Source: a bacterium
GTDB lineage: Bacteria; Blakebacterota; Blakebacteria; Blakebacterales; Blakebacteraceae
DNA length: 14,273 bases
Reading direction: 5' to 3'
Assembly (NCBI GenBank): GCA_025774205.1
Contig: JALGWK010000064.1
Span: 1 to 14,273 of the forward strand
In this document: piece after piece, positions 1 through 14,273 of the stretch
Position numbering within the stretch: the first letter of the stretch is position 1
Layout of the letters: the number at the start of each line of letters is the position of its first letter
The notes under the pieces: model-generated
What the model was told of the DNA's origin: nothing
The model's input: the letters and a program-made list of their open reading frames with translations, nothing else
Database searches by the model: none
Made by a program: the position numbers and the translations under genes

Positions 1-65
1 ATCATCTCACGCTCATCCATATCCTCGCTGAGGTAGCCGAGAGGACGGTTGCGGGTACGCAGTGA
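1..65 (+). CDS. 3' end of an unidentified upstream gene (partial)
   Basis: Reading from base 3, an open frame gives 20 residues (HLTLIHILAEVAERTVAGTQ) and a TGA stop at 63-65. The stop overlaps the GTG start of ispE in a GTGA arrangement, the same tight coupling seen at many other junctions in this window, which is the main reason to treat it as real. The other two forward frames close earlier (TAG at 34-36, TGA at 29-31). The fragment is too short to assign to a family. Its product is unknown and it could still be a chance open frame. Confidence 0.4.
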   Translation, partial: HLTLIHILAEVAERTVAGTQ

Positions 66-925
66 ATATCCACGCGCCCGCCAAGGTGAACCTGGGACTT
101 CGCCTCCTGCGGAAGCGGGAAGACGGGTACCACGAGATCGAGACCTTCTTCCACACCCTGGCCTGGGGTGATGAACTCCGGATCGAACCGTCTGACACCC
201 TCTCCCTGACCGTCGTTCCGGCGAGTGACGCGGCCTTTCCCGGACTCCTGGAAGAGGTGCCGGGCGACAGCTCCAATCTGGTCTGGAGGGCGGCTGATCT
301 CCTGATGAAGCGATTCGACCTGCCAGGGGTTTCGATCACCCTCACCAAGCGAACTCCTCCGGGCGCCGGACTGGGGGGTGGATCGAGTGACGCCGCGGCG
401 ACGCTGAGATGTCTGACCGACCTCTACCGGCTGGATATCTCCGAGGCTGATCTCCACGTGATGGCGATGGAACTGGGCGCGGATGTGCCCTTCCTCCTCA
501 CCGGCGGATGCGCTCTGGCGGAAGGTATCGGGGAGAGGCTCACACCGATCGAACCGCTGGATGATGTGCCGGTTCTGGTCATTCTCCATCCCTTCACGAT
601 CCCGACCCCATGGGCATACCGCGCCGCCGGATTGAGGGATGAGAAAGAAGCCTGTTATCAGCGCTGTCTCACTGATGAGGGTGGTATCGCCGAGGTCCTT
701 AACTGCATTGACTTGCGAAACGATTTGGAGGACCCTGTAATCGAAGCCTACCCGGATATCACCGACTCTTTGACAGCATTGAGAGATTCCGGGGCCTTCT
801 TCGTCTCACTGACGGGCAGTGGTTCCGCCGTGTACGGGCTCTACACTACAGAGGACGATGCGGCCGGAGCGGCCCGCCAGCTCGGCGACGAGGGTTTTGC
901 TGTAATCGAAACGGTCTTGCGGTGA
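62..925 (+). CDS. ispE: 4-diphosphocytidyl-2-C-methyl-D-erythritol kinase
   Basis: IspE uses ATP to phosphorylate the 2-hydroxyl of CDP-methylerythritol in the cytoplasmic MEP (non-mevalonate) route to isoprenoid precursors. The 287-residue protein has the usual family length. The N-terminal APAKVNLGL block (residues 5-13, Lys8) and the ADVPF block (Asp141) supply the expected catalytic Lys/Asp pair. The GHMP-kinase glycine-rich ATP loop PPGAGLGGGSSDAA lies at about residues 99-112. The C-terminal GHMP motif is LTGSGSAVYG, near residue 265. The start is GTG at 62, which puts the conserved N-terminus in place and overlaps the upstream stop; purine-rich GAGAGGA at 39-45 is a distant, weak ribosome-binding site. 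ispE lies upstream of spoVG and prs, as in many bacteria. Nothing looks damaged. Confidence 0.96.
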   Translation: MNIHAPAKVNLGLRLLRKREDGYHEIETFFHTLAWGDELRIEPSDTLSLTVVPASDAAFPGLLEEVPGDSSNLVWRAADLLMKRFDLPGVSITLTKRTPPGAGLGGGSSDAAATLRCLTDLYRLDISEADLHVMAMELGADVPFLLTGGCALAEGIGERLTPIEPLDDVPVLVILHPFTIPTPWAYRAAGLRDEKEACYQRCLTDEGGIAEVLNCIDLRNDLEDPVIEAYPDITDSLTALRDSGAFFVSLTGSGSAVYGLYTTEDDAAGAARQLGDEGFAVIETVLR

Positions 926-981
926 AGACACTTCAGTCCCGACCGGGATGAATTGACCGGGCGGGAGGGAGACCCACAGCC

Positions 982-1320
982 ATGAAGATCACCGAAGTCA
1001 GGGTCTCACTCTGCAACGAGGAAAGACTCAAAGCGTTTGTGAATATCACCTTCGACGACGAATTCGTCGTAAGGGGCCTGAAAGTGATAGAGGGGCACAA
1101 CGGGTTCTTCGTTTCCATGCCCTCCAGGCGTCGTTCTGACGGTACGTACCAGGATATAGCCCACCCGATCAACAACGCCATGCGGACCATGCTCGAAGAA
1201 ACCGTGCTCAAGGCCTATGGGGATCAGCTGCAGCTGGCCCGGGATCGGGGTGATGCGGTCGACGAACCGACGCCCGAACCGGAATCCGAGGCCGACGACG
1301 AAACGGAACAACAACCCTGA
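982..1320 (+). CDS. spoVG: SpoVG family nucleic-acid-binding regulator
   Basis: SpoVG proteins are small site-specific DNA- and RNA-binding regulators, first described in sporulating Firmicutes but present in spirochaetes and many non-sporulating phyla. The 112-residue product starts MKITEVRV and carries the family core: the LKAFVNITFDDEFVVRGLKV strand region, GFFVSMPSRR (about residues 47-56) and DIAHPINNAMR (about residues 64-74). The last 25 or so residues (PTPEPESEADDETEQQP) are an acidic, probably disordered tail beyond the conserved domain. The start is ATG at 982, with purine-rich GGGAGGGAG at 963-971 upstream. The gap after ispE is 56 bases, so co-transcription is likely. The family is certain, but the target genes are unknown; nothing else in this window points to sporulation. 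Confidence 0.94.
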   Translation: MKITEVRVSLCNEERLKAFVNITFDDEFVVRGLKVIEGHNGFFVSMPSRRRSDGTYQDIAHPINNAMRTMLEETVLKAYGDQLQLARDRGDAVDEPTPEPESEADDETEQQP

Positions 1321-1333
1321 TCCACAGATCCCC

Positions 1334-1356
1334 CTGATCGGTTCCCATTCGATCAG
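1334..1356 (+). other. 7-bp inverted repeat after spoVG
   Basis: CTGATCG (1334-1340) and CGATCAG (1350-1356) form a perfect 7-bp inverted repeat around a 9-base loop. It begins 13 bases after the spoVG stop and lies about 20 bases before the tRNA. No T-run follows, so it does not look like a standard intrinsic terminator. It could be a transcript-end stabiliser, a processing signal for the tRNA, or chance. Confidence 0.4.
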
Positions 1357-1375
1357 CTCCCTCTCCGATATTTGC

Positions 1376-1449
1376 TGGGGTGTAGACTAAGGGTAAGTCA
1401 CCGGTCTTTGGAACCGGCGTTCTGGGTTCGATTCCCAGCACCCCAGCCA
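1376..1449 (+). tRNA. tRNA-Gln (anticodon UUG)
   Basis: A complete cloverleaf folds by eye. The acceptor stem is TGGGGTG (1376-1382) with CACCCCA (1439-1445). The D stem is GACT/AGTC (1385-1388 and 1396-1399) and the anticodon stem is CCGGT/ACCGG (1401-1405 and 1413-1417). The anticodon loop CTTTGGA places TTG at 1408-1410. The T stem is CTGGG/CCCAG (1422-1426 and 1434-1438) around a TTCGATT loop. The variable loop has four bases, the discriminator is G at 1446, and CCA at 1447-1449 is encoded. UUG reads CAA (and CAG by wobble), so it is charged with glutamine. A tRNA-Gln just upstream of prs is also seen in some other bacteria such as Geobacter-type genomes (recalled). Confidence 0.97.
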
Positions 1450-1518
1450 TCTCCTTCCCGATTCCAGACACACCAGACAGTTCCTTCCCGGCGTCATTAT
1501 CCGTGGTGGCAGAGGGGG

Positions 1519-1549
1519 GTTGTCGGGGTTATCAATATGATACTTATAG
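1519..1549 (+). promoter_or_regulatory. AT-rich promoter candidate upstream of prs
   Basis: Bases 1527-1549 form an unusually AT-rich island in GC-rich surroundings, containing TATGAT (1536-1541) and TTATAG. A TTGTCG hexamer lies at 1520-1525, but its spacing to TATGAT is only 10 bases, so no good -35/-10 pair can be drawn. The island lies 35-60 bases before the prs start, a reasonable place for a promoter separating prs from the tRNA. The call rests only on position and composition. The rest of the 134-base gap (1450-1583) shows nothing else recognisable. Confidence 0.25.
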
Positions 1550-1583
1550 ACCGCATCCTCACCCCGCTGACGGATGAATACCT

Positions 1584-2466
1584 ATGCCGCACTCTATGAA
1601 GTTCTTCACCGGTACTTCCAATCCCGGTCTGGCGCTGGAGATTTCCGAATACCTTGAGACTCCGCTCGGGAACGTGACCATCAAGACATTCGCCGACGGT
1701 GAGATCTTCGTGAAATACGAGGAGAACATCAGGGGCGCGGATGTGTTCATCATCCAGTCGACGAACAGCCCCTGTACCAACCTGATCGAACTCTTCCTCA
1801 TGCTCGACGCGGCCCGGAAGTCTTCGGCCCGTCGTGTGACCGCCGTCATTCCCTACTACGGCTACTGCCGCCAGGACCGGAAAGATCAGCCGCGTGTGAG
1901 CATCTCTGCCAAGCTGATGGCCGATCTCATAACCCAGGCCGGCGCCAACAGGATGCTCACCATGGACCTGCACGCGGCGCAGATCCAGGGATTCTTCGAC
2001 ATCCCCGTCGATCACCTCTACTCGAGCATGGCCCGATGTGGGCTCGCTGATCATGGCAAGAGCGTATGCCAAGCGCCTGGGGGTCGGGATCGCCTTCATC
2101 GACAAACGGCGTCCCGAACCGAACGCGGTCGAGGTGCTCAACATCATTGGTGAAGTCGAGGGGCGGAACATCCTCATCATCGATGACATGGTCGACACCG
2201 CGGGTACCCTCTGCGAAGCGGCCAAAGGGCTGAAGGCCAAGGGGGCGAACCACATTTACTGTGCCGCCACCCATGGGCTCCTCTCCGGCCCGGCGATCGA
2301 CCGGCTGCTGGAGAGCCCGATCGAGAGGATGATCGTTACCAATACCATTTCGATTCCCGAAGATAAACACTTTCCAGACTTGGAAATCGTCTCGGTGGGA
2401 CATATCTTCGGCGAAGCGATCCGCAGGACCTATCAGGAGGAAAGTATCAGTACTCTCTTCAGGTAG
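1584..2466 (+). pseudogene. prs: Ribose-phosphate pyrophosphokinase (PRPP synthase), frameshifted with internal deletion
   Basis: Prs makes PRPP from ribose 5-phosphate and ATP for nucleotide, His, Trp and NAD synthesis. The first half (frame of 1584) has the N-terminal domain: FADGE, ENIRGADVFIIQST, the flexible loop YYGYCRQDRK (residues 91-100), His130 in DLHAAQIQGFFD, and IPVDHLYSS near residue 148. The homologous frame then stops. The second half resumes in another frame with PDVG at 2032-2043, followed by ARAYAKRL, IDKRRPEPN, the PRPP loop DDMVDTAGT (2182-2208), THGLLSGPAIDR, VTNTI and a proper C-terminus ending TLFR at 2463. Only 13 bases lie between 'HL' and 'PDVG', where B. subtilis Prs (recalled) has about 22 residues, so about 53 bases seem lost, including the interdomain linker. 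Without the loss the protein would be about 312 residues, the normal length. Start ATG 1584 has a weak GGA 9 bases upstream; ATG 1596 is an alternative. Since prs is normally essential, an assembly or sequencing error is a serious alternative to true gene loss. Confidence 0.9.
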
Positions 2467-2520
2467 ATGTACAGTCCGCGGATTTCGAGTAACTATCCTG
2501 AGTGATACCTACATAGAGAA

Positions 2521-2540
2521 ACCGGTCCCTTCGGATCGGT
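2521..2540 (+). other. Hairpin in the rplY leader
   Basis: ACCGGTCC (2521-2528) pairs with GGATCGGT (2533-2540) around loop CTTC, an 8-bp stem with one G-U pair. It lies in the 137-base gap between prs and rplY, about 60 bases before the rplY start. No T-run follows, so a simple terminator is unlikely. It could be a leader element controlling bL25 or a 3' stabiliser of the prs message. I see no match to a known leader family. Confidence 0.4.
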
Positions 2541-2603
2541 GACATGCCAGCGGTCGCGGCGGGATGATGCCCGATCCGTGACCTGTCAGGAGGCCGTGCT
2601 GAC

Positions 2604-3281
2604 ATGGAACGCTCGATTCTTCACGCCCTTTCCCGCGAGGAAACGGGTTCAAGAGCGGCTCGTCGTATACGCCGCGCCAACAGCATTCCCGCCGTACTTT
2701 ACGGGAAGTCCAATGAATCCCGACCAATCGCGATCGACTCGGTCGAGTTCGATGGCCTTCTCCGTCAGGGACTCACGGGAAACACTCTCATCAATCTGCT
2801 CATCGACGACGAGGAGAAATCCGACCGGCTGACCATGATCAGGGAGATCCAGCGGGATCCGATGCGTGACACTTTCCGTCACCTTGATCTCGTCCATATC
2901 GACCTCAAGGAAACGATCAAGGTCGATGTGCCGGTGCGCCTCATCGGCCAGGCCGAAGGCGTCAAGGCGGGTGGAATTCTCGAACAGAAGGTCTACGCCA
3001 TCGAGATCGAGTGTCTCCCGACCGAGATTCCGTCGGAATTCGAGGTTGATGTCACCGAGATGAACATCAACGACTCCATCCACCTGGACGAGATCGATCT
3101 CGGAGATTTCGAAACCTCCATGAAACTGCAGCGTACGGTCGTATCGATCGCTCCGCCGCGCGTCGAAGAGGTCATCGAAGAGATCATCGAGATCCCGGGT
3201 GTGCCTGAGCTTATCGGTGAAGAGGTCGAGGAAGGTGCGGACGAGGCGGAGGCTGAAGAGGACTCCGAGGCCCAGGGTTAG
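2604..3281 (+). CDS. rplY: 50S ribosomal protein bL25, long Ctc/TL5 form
   Basis: bL25 binds 5S rRNA in the central protuberance of the large subunit; the long, two-domain form is also called Ctc or TL5. The 225-residue product has the N-terminal L25 domain (about residues 3-95, with RRANSIPAVLYGK, INLLIDDE and the FRHLDLVHIDL end). The C-terminal TL5-type beta domain follows (about residues 105-185, with VDVPVRLIGQAEGVKAGGIL and IECLPTEIPSEFEVDVT). Residues from about 187 form a strongly acidic tail ending EEDSEAQG. Start ATG 2604 is preceded by a perfect AGGAGG at 2588-2593 with 10-base spacing. It sits between prs and pth, the classical order. Nothing is broken. Confidence 0.95.
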   Translation: MERSILHALSREETGSRAARRIRRANSIPAVLYGKSNESRPIAIDSVEFDGLLRQGLTGNTLINLLIDDEEKSDRLTMIREIQRDPMRDTFRHLDLVHIDLKETIKVDVPVRLIGQAEGVKAGGILEQKVYAIEIECLPTEIPSEFEVDVTEMNINDSIHLDEIDLGDFETSMKLQRTVVSIAPPRVEEVIEEIIEIPGVPELIGEEVEEGADEAEAEEDSEAQG

Positions 3282-3316
3282 TCCGGGCCGGTGGCGCGCT
3301 CAGACGGGTACGTTCG

Positions 3317-3883
3317 GTGGATTCCCGCACAGTAATAATCGGTCTGGGTAATCCCGGCCGTGATTACGCGGCGACGAGGCACAACCTCGGTTTTCGCGTG
3401 GTTGACCTGCTCGCTGAACGGTGGCAAGCCGGATTCAGCGGGGGCAAGGGAGAGTACCTTCTCGCCGTCACCCGGTTTGCGGAGCGTTCGATCGTGCTCT
3501 CGAAACCGACTACGTACATGAATGAGAGCGGGTTCGCCGTCCAGGGCCTCCTCTCCTGGTACCGGATCGATCCGGAGGATCTGCTGGTGATCTCGGACGA
3601 CGTCAACCTGCCGATCGGCACGATGCGATTCCGACAGGGAGGTTCGAGCGGCGGTCACCGCGGACTGGAACACATTATCTACCAGCTTGGTAGAGACGAT
3701 TTCACCCGACTGAGGATAGGCGTGGGTGCCGAAAACATGCCCGAGGATCTGAAAGGGTATGTGTTGTCACCCTTCCGCGCTGAAGAACGTGAACTGATCG
3801 AAGAGATGATTTCGAGAGCTGCCGACGCTGTTGAGTCCTATCTCTCCAGCGGTCTCGAAGAAGCCATGAACCTGTTCAACTGA
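3317..3883 (+). CDS. pth: Peptidyl-tRNA hydrolase
   Basis: Pth releases peptides from prematurely dissociated peptidyl-tRNA so the tRNA can be reused, acting in the cytoplasm. The 188-residue length is typical. Visible family residues are Asn12 in GLGNPG, the catalytic His22 in ATRHNLGF, Asn69 in KPTTYMNESG, Asp94/Asp95 in ISDDVNLPIG and the GGSSGGHRGLEHI block at residues 108-120. At position 115 this protein has Arg where E. coli Pth has a substrate-contacting Asn (GGHNG); my recollection is that HRG occurs in other active bacterial enzymes, so this is a variant, not damage. The start is GTG at 3317, placed by homology, with no strong ribosome-binding site. The gap after rplY is 35 bases and the gap before hppA is 21. 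Confidence 0.95.
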   Translation: MDSRTVIIGLGNPGRDYAATRHNLGFRVVDLLAERWQAGFSGGKGEYLLAVTRFAERSIVLSKPTTYMNESGFAVQGLLSWYRIDPEDLLVISDDVNLPIGTMRFRQGGSSGGHRGLEHIIYQLGRDDFTRLRIGVGAENMPEDLKGYVLSPFRAEERELIEEMISRAADAVESYLSSGLEEAMNLFN

Positions 3884-10047: not shown

Positions 10048-10115
10048 GCCCGGTCAAGCACGGCGTCGCTCTCGGTGCAGACGATTGTCACCTGACTGGA
10101 CATTGGGAGACCGTC

Positions 10116-12922: not shown

Positions 12923-13458
12923 CACGGCTATCCAGGCAACCGATCGCATCCATCCTGTTTCTCATCTTACTCTCGGGATGCGCGTCAGCACCCCGTTACC
13001 ATGGTAGTCCGGTACAGAGGCCGGCTTCAGATCCGTCAGGATCGGAGACCACCAATCCCGTGACACCGGACCGACTGCCCGATCGCCCCGCCGCGGCGGG
13101 ACGGGTACCTGATGGCCCGAGACGCTGGGGAGATCACTACCTGAGGGGACTCTCCTCCTGGTACGGGCGTGACTTCCACGGCAAAAAGACCGCCAATGGC
13201 GAGATCTTCAACATGTACAAGCTCACCGCGGCTCACCGGACCCTCCCCCTCGGCACGAAAGCCAGGGTCTGGAATGTTGAGAACGGCAGGAGCTGCATTG
13301 TGATCATCAACGACCGCGGTCCGTTCATCGAGGGCCGGATACTCGATCTTTCCTACGCCGCCGCGCTGGAACTCGAGATGGCTCAGAAGGGCGTTGCTGA
13401 AGTCCAGATAGAGATCATCAAGCTGCCTGATGGTTCTCCGGGAACGTCGTATGAGTGA
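12919..13458 (+). CDS. rlpA: RlpA-like septal ring lytic transglycosylase lipoprotein
   Basis: RlpA is an outer-membrane lipoprotein that cleaves denuded (peptide-stripped) glycan strands and helps daughter cells separate. The 179-residue product has a signal peptide with LSGC lipobox (Cys21). A Pro/Ser-rich linker (about 22-70) leads to a double-psi beta-barrel domain (about 74-168): GLSSWYGRDFHGKKTANGE, MYKLTAAHRTLPLGTKARV and VIINDRGPFIEGRILDLSYAAA. Glu95 and Asp132 match the acidic catalytic residues described for P. aeruginosa RlpA. It lacks the C-terminal SPOR domain of the E. coli and Pseudomonas proteins, so septal targeting through denuded glycans is not expected. AAGGAGG at 12901-12907 precedes ATG 12919, which overlaps the TPR gene stop (ATGA). 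Confidence 0.93.
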   Translation: MTRLSRQPIASILFLILLSGCASAPRYHGSPVQRPASDPSGSETTNPVTPDRLPDRPAAAGRVPDGPRRWGDHYLRGLSSWYGRDFHGKKTANGEIFNMYKLTAAHRTLPLGTKARVWNVENGRSCIVIINDRGPFIEGRILDLSYAAALELEMAQKGVAEVQIEIIKLPDGSPGTSYE

Positions 13459-14273
13459 CGCGCCCTGCATGCCGCTCCTCCACGAGCGGGCCATCCACTT
13501 CAATACCCGGCTCTGTATCGGCATCGATCCGGTTCGGGAGCGGCTGCCCGAAATACTTCTCGACGATCCCGATCCCCTTCTGACGTTCTGCACCACGATC
13601 GTTGATGCCACCAGAGAATTCGCCCTCGCCTACAAGCCGAACATGGCCTTCTTCGAAGCCGATGGCGCAGAAGGTCTCGATCGGCTCCAGGCATTGATCG
13701 CGCATATTCCCGATCAGATCCCGATCATCCTCGACGCCAGGCGTGGAGACCTCGGCCCGTCGAGTGAGCAGTACGCGCGCATGGCGTTCGAAACCTTTGG
13801 AGCTGACGCGGTGACCGTCAGCCCGTGGATGGGACGGGGTAGAGCCATTCCTCGATTATAAGGAGCGGGGGATCTTCCTGGTCGCCGCGACCGGCAATCC
13901 GGGGGCGGCGGATTTTCAGGACCTCAGGGTGGAAGGTGAGTCCCTGTCCACCCGGGTGGCCCGGACAGCCTCCCTCTGGAATGAATGCGGGAACGTGGGA
14001 CTCATGACCGGCGGTAACCGTCCGGATGAGGTAGCGAAGTTGCGGGAGGCCGCCCCCGACCTGCCCTTCCTGGTGGTGGGCATGGGGGAGGAGGGGAGTG
14101 AGATCGGCCGGGTGATGAAAGCTGCGCTCAATTACCTCAATGAAGGGGTGATCTTCTCGATTTCCCGGGCGATCCTCTATACCCGGGATTCCGAGTTCGA
14201 TCGCGGCGCCGAACAGGCTGCCCGCGCTTTCATGAACCTGATGAACGAAGCACGGGAGGAAGCGCTCGAGATC
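13451..14273 (+). pseudogene. pyrF: Orotidine 5'-phosphate decarboxylase (type 2), frameshifted; runs off the window
   Basis: PyrF decarboxylates OMP to UMP, the last step of de novo pyrimidine synthesis. From ATG 13451 (8-base overlap with the rlpA stop) the frame gives RLCIGIDPVRERL, FALAYKPNMAFFEADG, IPIILDARRGDLG and GADAVTVSPWMGR, then runs into a wrong-frame end and a TAA at 13859. The family sequence continues in another frame from 13833: DGVEPFLDYKERGIF, ATGNPGAADFQDL, NVGLMTGGNRPDEV, PFLVVGMGEEGSE and ISRAILYTR, open to the last base. The two frames meet exactly if one GGGAC unit has been lost after 13829 (5 bases). The DxKxxD motif also reads D-A-R-R-G-D: codon AGG at 13739-13741 puts Arg97 where the family has its catalytic lysine. 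So the gene looks both shifted and catalytically crippled, unless base errors explain both. The C-terminus lies outside the window. Confidence 0.88.

Follow-up and report, generated by a model that had tools for sequence, protein, structure and literature searches.

A frame-breaking 53-nt gap in prs of a draft bacterial genome is probably a local assembly error

The gene for ribose-phosphate pyrophosphokinase (prs) in the window, by which we mean the whole 14,273-nt stretch of DNA that was analysed, lacks 53 nt at the join of its two domains and changes frame there. The gap is real in the assembled sequence but almost certainly not in the organism, as judged from comparison of sequences. We consider it very probable that the gap arose through a local error in the assembly of a metagenome-type draft, a reading that rests on a pattern seen across the assembly and that becomes almost certain because several other essential genes show similar losses of ~50-61 nt. 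The value of the finding is one of caution only, in that the assembly breaks genes; otherwise the locus is ordinary.

The prs gene as assembled

All gap sizes given here were obtained by pairwise DNA alignment with a genome from the same genus (G001), whose intact prs of 311 codons served as reference. In this alignment the 53-nt deletion, at ~2028-2032, is the sole gap across the whole gene (1584..2466), so that the estimate of about 53 missing bases in the earlier note proves to be exact. A GCC/CC microhomology of 2-3 nt means that the junction can be placed only to within that length. What is lost is codons 150-167, which comprise the end of the N-terminal domain and the first strand of the C-terminal domain, and the frame is shifted, in agreement with the earlier proposal that the missing length would both change the frame and remove a strand. 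In solved structures (e.g. 1dkr) the absent residues, ~150-167, correspond to the stretch ahead of the PDxG motif.

The translations also confirm the description of an N-terminal domain that runs to HLYSS and a C-terminal domain that resumes with PDVG at 2032 in another frame. The first frame is good through ...DHLYSSMA, after which the residues are unrelated until the stop, and the C-terminal part resumes as PDVGSLIMARAYAKRL. Both domains of a class I Prs are present, the N-terminal Pribosyltran_N and the C-terminal Pribosyl_synth (Table 1), and these are the domains of the class I enzyme from Bacillus subtilis (PDB 1DKR/1DKU/1IBS), from which the window copy differs by the absence of codons 150-167 and the change of frame at that place. 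The single continuous frame of ~310-320 codons that belongs to a class I prs is, however, broken at ~2030. The order of genes in window 62-3883 (ispE, spoVG-like, tRNA-Gln, prs, bL25 (ctc/rplY) and pth) resembles what we take to be the B. subtilis order, ispE-spoVG-prs-ctc-pth.

Table 1. Features of the prs locus in the window, and frame-breaking lesions in the same assembly
Feature	Position in window	Strand	Lesion	Basis
tRNA-Gln(TTG), intact, upstream of prs	1376..1449	+		ARAGORN; Rfam RF00005
prs N-terminal part (ribose-phosphate pyrophosphokinase), codons 1-149 of 311	1584..2031	+	frame continues to stop at 2153	PF13793 (Pribosyltran_N), 1596-1943, E 1e-46 (Pfam)
prs junction	2028..2032	+	53 nt missing	alignment with same-genus relative; 2-3 nt microhomology
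prs C-terminal part, PDVG... to stop	2032..2466	+	other frame	PF14572 (Pribosyl_synth), 2134-2463, E 1.6e-26 (Pfam)
pyrF	13451..14273	+	5-nt loss near 13838-13842	intact same-genus copy; second lesion of the same class on the same contig
pyrK			61-nt loss, 1-2 nt microhomology	G001
Aminotransferase class V gene			50-nt loss	G001
cmk			50-nt loss	G001
Amidase gene			59-nt loss, no microhomology	G001
gmk			59-nt loss, no microhomology	G001
glnD			59-nt loss, no microhomology	G001
TerB-like gene			59-nt loss, no microhomology	G001; alignment has further gaps nearby
Gfo/Idh gene			76-nt loss	G001
lgt			7-nt tandem duplication	G001

An intact prs encoding 311 aa is present in G001 and in two genomes of the same family (G002 and G003), and in all three of these close relatives it lies at the corresponding place. 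The G001 protein matches 1dkr across residues 4-310 (E 5e-95). The earlier note had asked for an alignment with the closest relatives, and none of the three carries the short form. It had also raised the possibility of a second prs elsewhere, which did not materialise, PF13793 and PF14572 having one match each in the assembly (~86% complete), both at this locus. A scan of contigs with the C-terminal half of the gene returned only relatives at <=61% identity, and so gave no independent assembly of this species.

Measured against G001, dN/dS is ~0.036 in each half of prs, and both halves look to be under strong purifying selection, as in a gene in use. The relaxed selection of a real pseudogene is therefore not seen in either half, on a measure that a very recent loss would escape, and the value sits well with the earlier remark that the deletion, if real, would be very recent.

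Lesions elsewhere in the assembly

The assembly is a draft of 527 contigs and 3.09 Mb, with a completeness of 85.85% and a contamination of 4.84%, and lesions of the same class as that in prs occur in many unrelated genes, including essential single-copy ones (Table 1). Exactly 59 nt has been lost in four of these genes. Such an exact recurrence, without microhomology (the 61-nt loss having 1-2 nt), would be unexpected from independent mutations and suggests the assembler as its source, possibly through a step of fixed length such as a k-mer or an overlap between contig ends. As with prs, no further copy of cmk or gmk was found in the assembly, where the sole copy of each is broken. Since the only copies found of prs, cmk and gmk are all broken, the sequence as written cannot be that of a viable free-living cell; we know of no free-living bacterium that lacks all three together and, from what is established about these essential genes, would hold one to be impossible. 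The same genome has another pyrF-like gene, an intact one, on contig C348.

To survey coding-phase jumps inside genes more widely, a phase-HMM was applied to this genome and to its same-genus relative. Sixty further contigs were sampled, of which 18, all <3 kb and read as N, were excluded, leaving 42 readable contigs that together with the window amount to 297 kb. This sequence gave 32 candidate frame breaks, against 15 in the 236 kb taken from the same-genus genome. Because the candidates include false positives where one gene simply ends and the next begins, lesions were counted only where a relative or a broken domain backed them. Reading of the sequences revealed that most of the strong candidates here are breaks within genes, whereas most of those in the same-genus genome are ordinary gene boundaries. 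When ten within-gene candidates from this genome were scanned with Pfam, several of the breaks coincided with known domains. The lesion counts should not be taken as an unbiased rate, since the presence of candidates was part of the reason for selecting the contigs to compare with G001. Given the many frame-breaking joins here, and fewer in the same-genus relative, broken or missing genes in this assembly should not be interpreted as lost metabolic functions.

Frame breaks were noted on contigs L124, L127, L133, L139, L162, L166, L168, L184, L189 and L194 of the window's genome. The genes broken there include those for GlnD, an ABC transporter, an amidase, PyrK, an aminotransferase and Cmk, as well as TonB-receptor-like, lgt, gmk, beta-lactamase-fold and Gfo/Idh genes.

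Origin of the gap

Local errors, with sequence missing or duplicated at joins, have been described in metagenome-assembled genomes, from which incorrect gene sequences propagate (PMC7111523), and many of the bacterial pseudogenes recorded in databases have been shown to arise from assembly (PMC11017572). The lesions described here are like those errors in being short losses or duplications that occur here and there across the assembly in genes that are otherwise conserved. They differ in that the published cases are defined by read support and ours by sequence comparison, and in the repeated length of 59 nt, which is peculiar to this assembly. Where coverage or k-mer continuity failed at a site, the flanking contig ends may have been joined directly or through a chance overlap of 0-3 nt, with the loss of the ~50-60 nt that lay between them. 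We infer both this joining mechanism and the intact state of prs in the cell; like its relatives, the organism most likely has an ordinary, intact class I prs located between tRNA-Gln and the bL25 gene. Two features of the junction fit assembly error less well, namely that the prs loss is 53 nt and so differs from 59, and that a microhomology of 2-3 nt could occur in a genuine deletion too.

That microhomology, together with the continued conservation of both halves and the incompleteness of the genome (85.85%), would be in keeping with a genuine and very recent deletion of 53 nt, in which neighbours supply PRPP-dependent compounds or a second prs lies within the unassembled ~14%. We regard this as very unlikely, given that lesions of this kind also interrupt cmk, gmk, pyrF, lgt, glnD and other genes in the same assembly and that prs is intact at the same place in three close relatives. 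Less likely still is its more specific form, a population that has just lost its sole prs and lives on PRPP-derived compounds from the community. If the loss were true, this would be a rare bacterium without its own PRPP synthesis. The earlier note had offered assembly error, a second prs and a dependent lifestyle side by side; the first is now strongly supported, no second copy was found, and a dependent lifestyle specific to prs is unsupported, given that comparable lesions affect many unrelated genes, among them several essential ones present in single copy.

The number of broken genes within one genome might instead point to decay throughout it, in a host-dependent or endosymbiotic bacterium with many recent pseudogenes of which prs would be one. 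This seems more doubtful again, since gmk and cmk, which even reduced symbionts usually keep, are among the broken genes, loss lengths recur at exactly 59 nt, and coding density exceeds 90% in a 3.1-Mb genome. The low dN/dS in prs also speaks against it, as do the assembly-type tandem duplications that the same-genus genome has of its own. Finally, although the two prs halves are adjacent on the same strand in different frames, the idea that recoding (programmed frameshifting or ribosomal bypass) joins them into a shortened working Prs can be put down as wholly improbable, because the bases for 17-18 residues, including the strand before PDVG in the C-terminal domain, are absent from the DNA and could not be restored in this way, and the prs of close relatives needs no recoding.

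Lesions in the same-genus genome, and a dispersed element

Three lesions of assembly type were seen in G001 itself. Its bL25 gene has a 22-nt tandem duplication and its hppA pyrophosphatase gene a 4-nt loss (L140 / G001:C316; equivalents of window 2759 and 4858), and a Gfo/Idh gene has a 61-nt tandem duplication (L232 / G001:C297).

A dispersed, MITE-like element of ~166 bp with CTAG-ended terminal inverted repeats was also observed. Copies or parts of it lie at window 10050-10102, L208:2363-2527, L207:9000-9165, L206:4140-4304 and L162:1134-1175. Among loci sampled from the same-genus genome there are at least seven near-full copies, and those in the sampled contigs of this genome are mostly partial.
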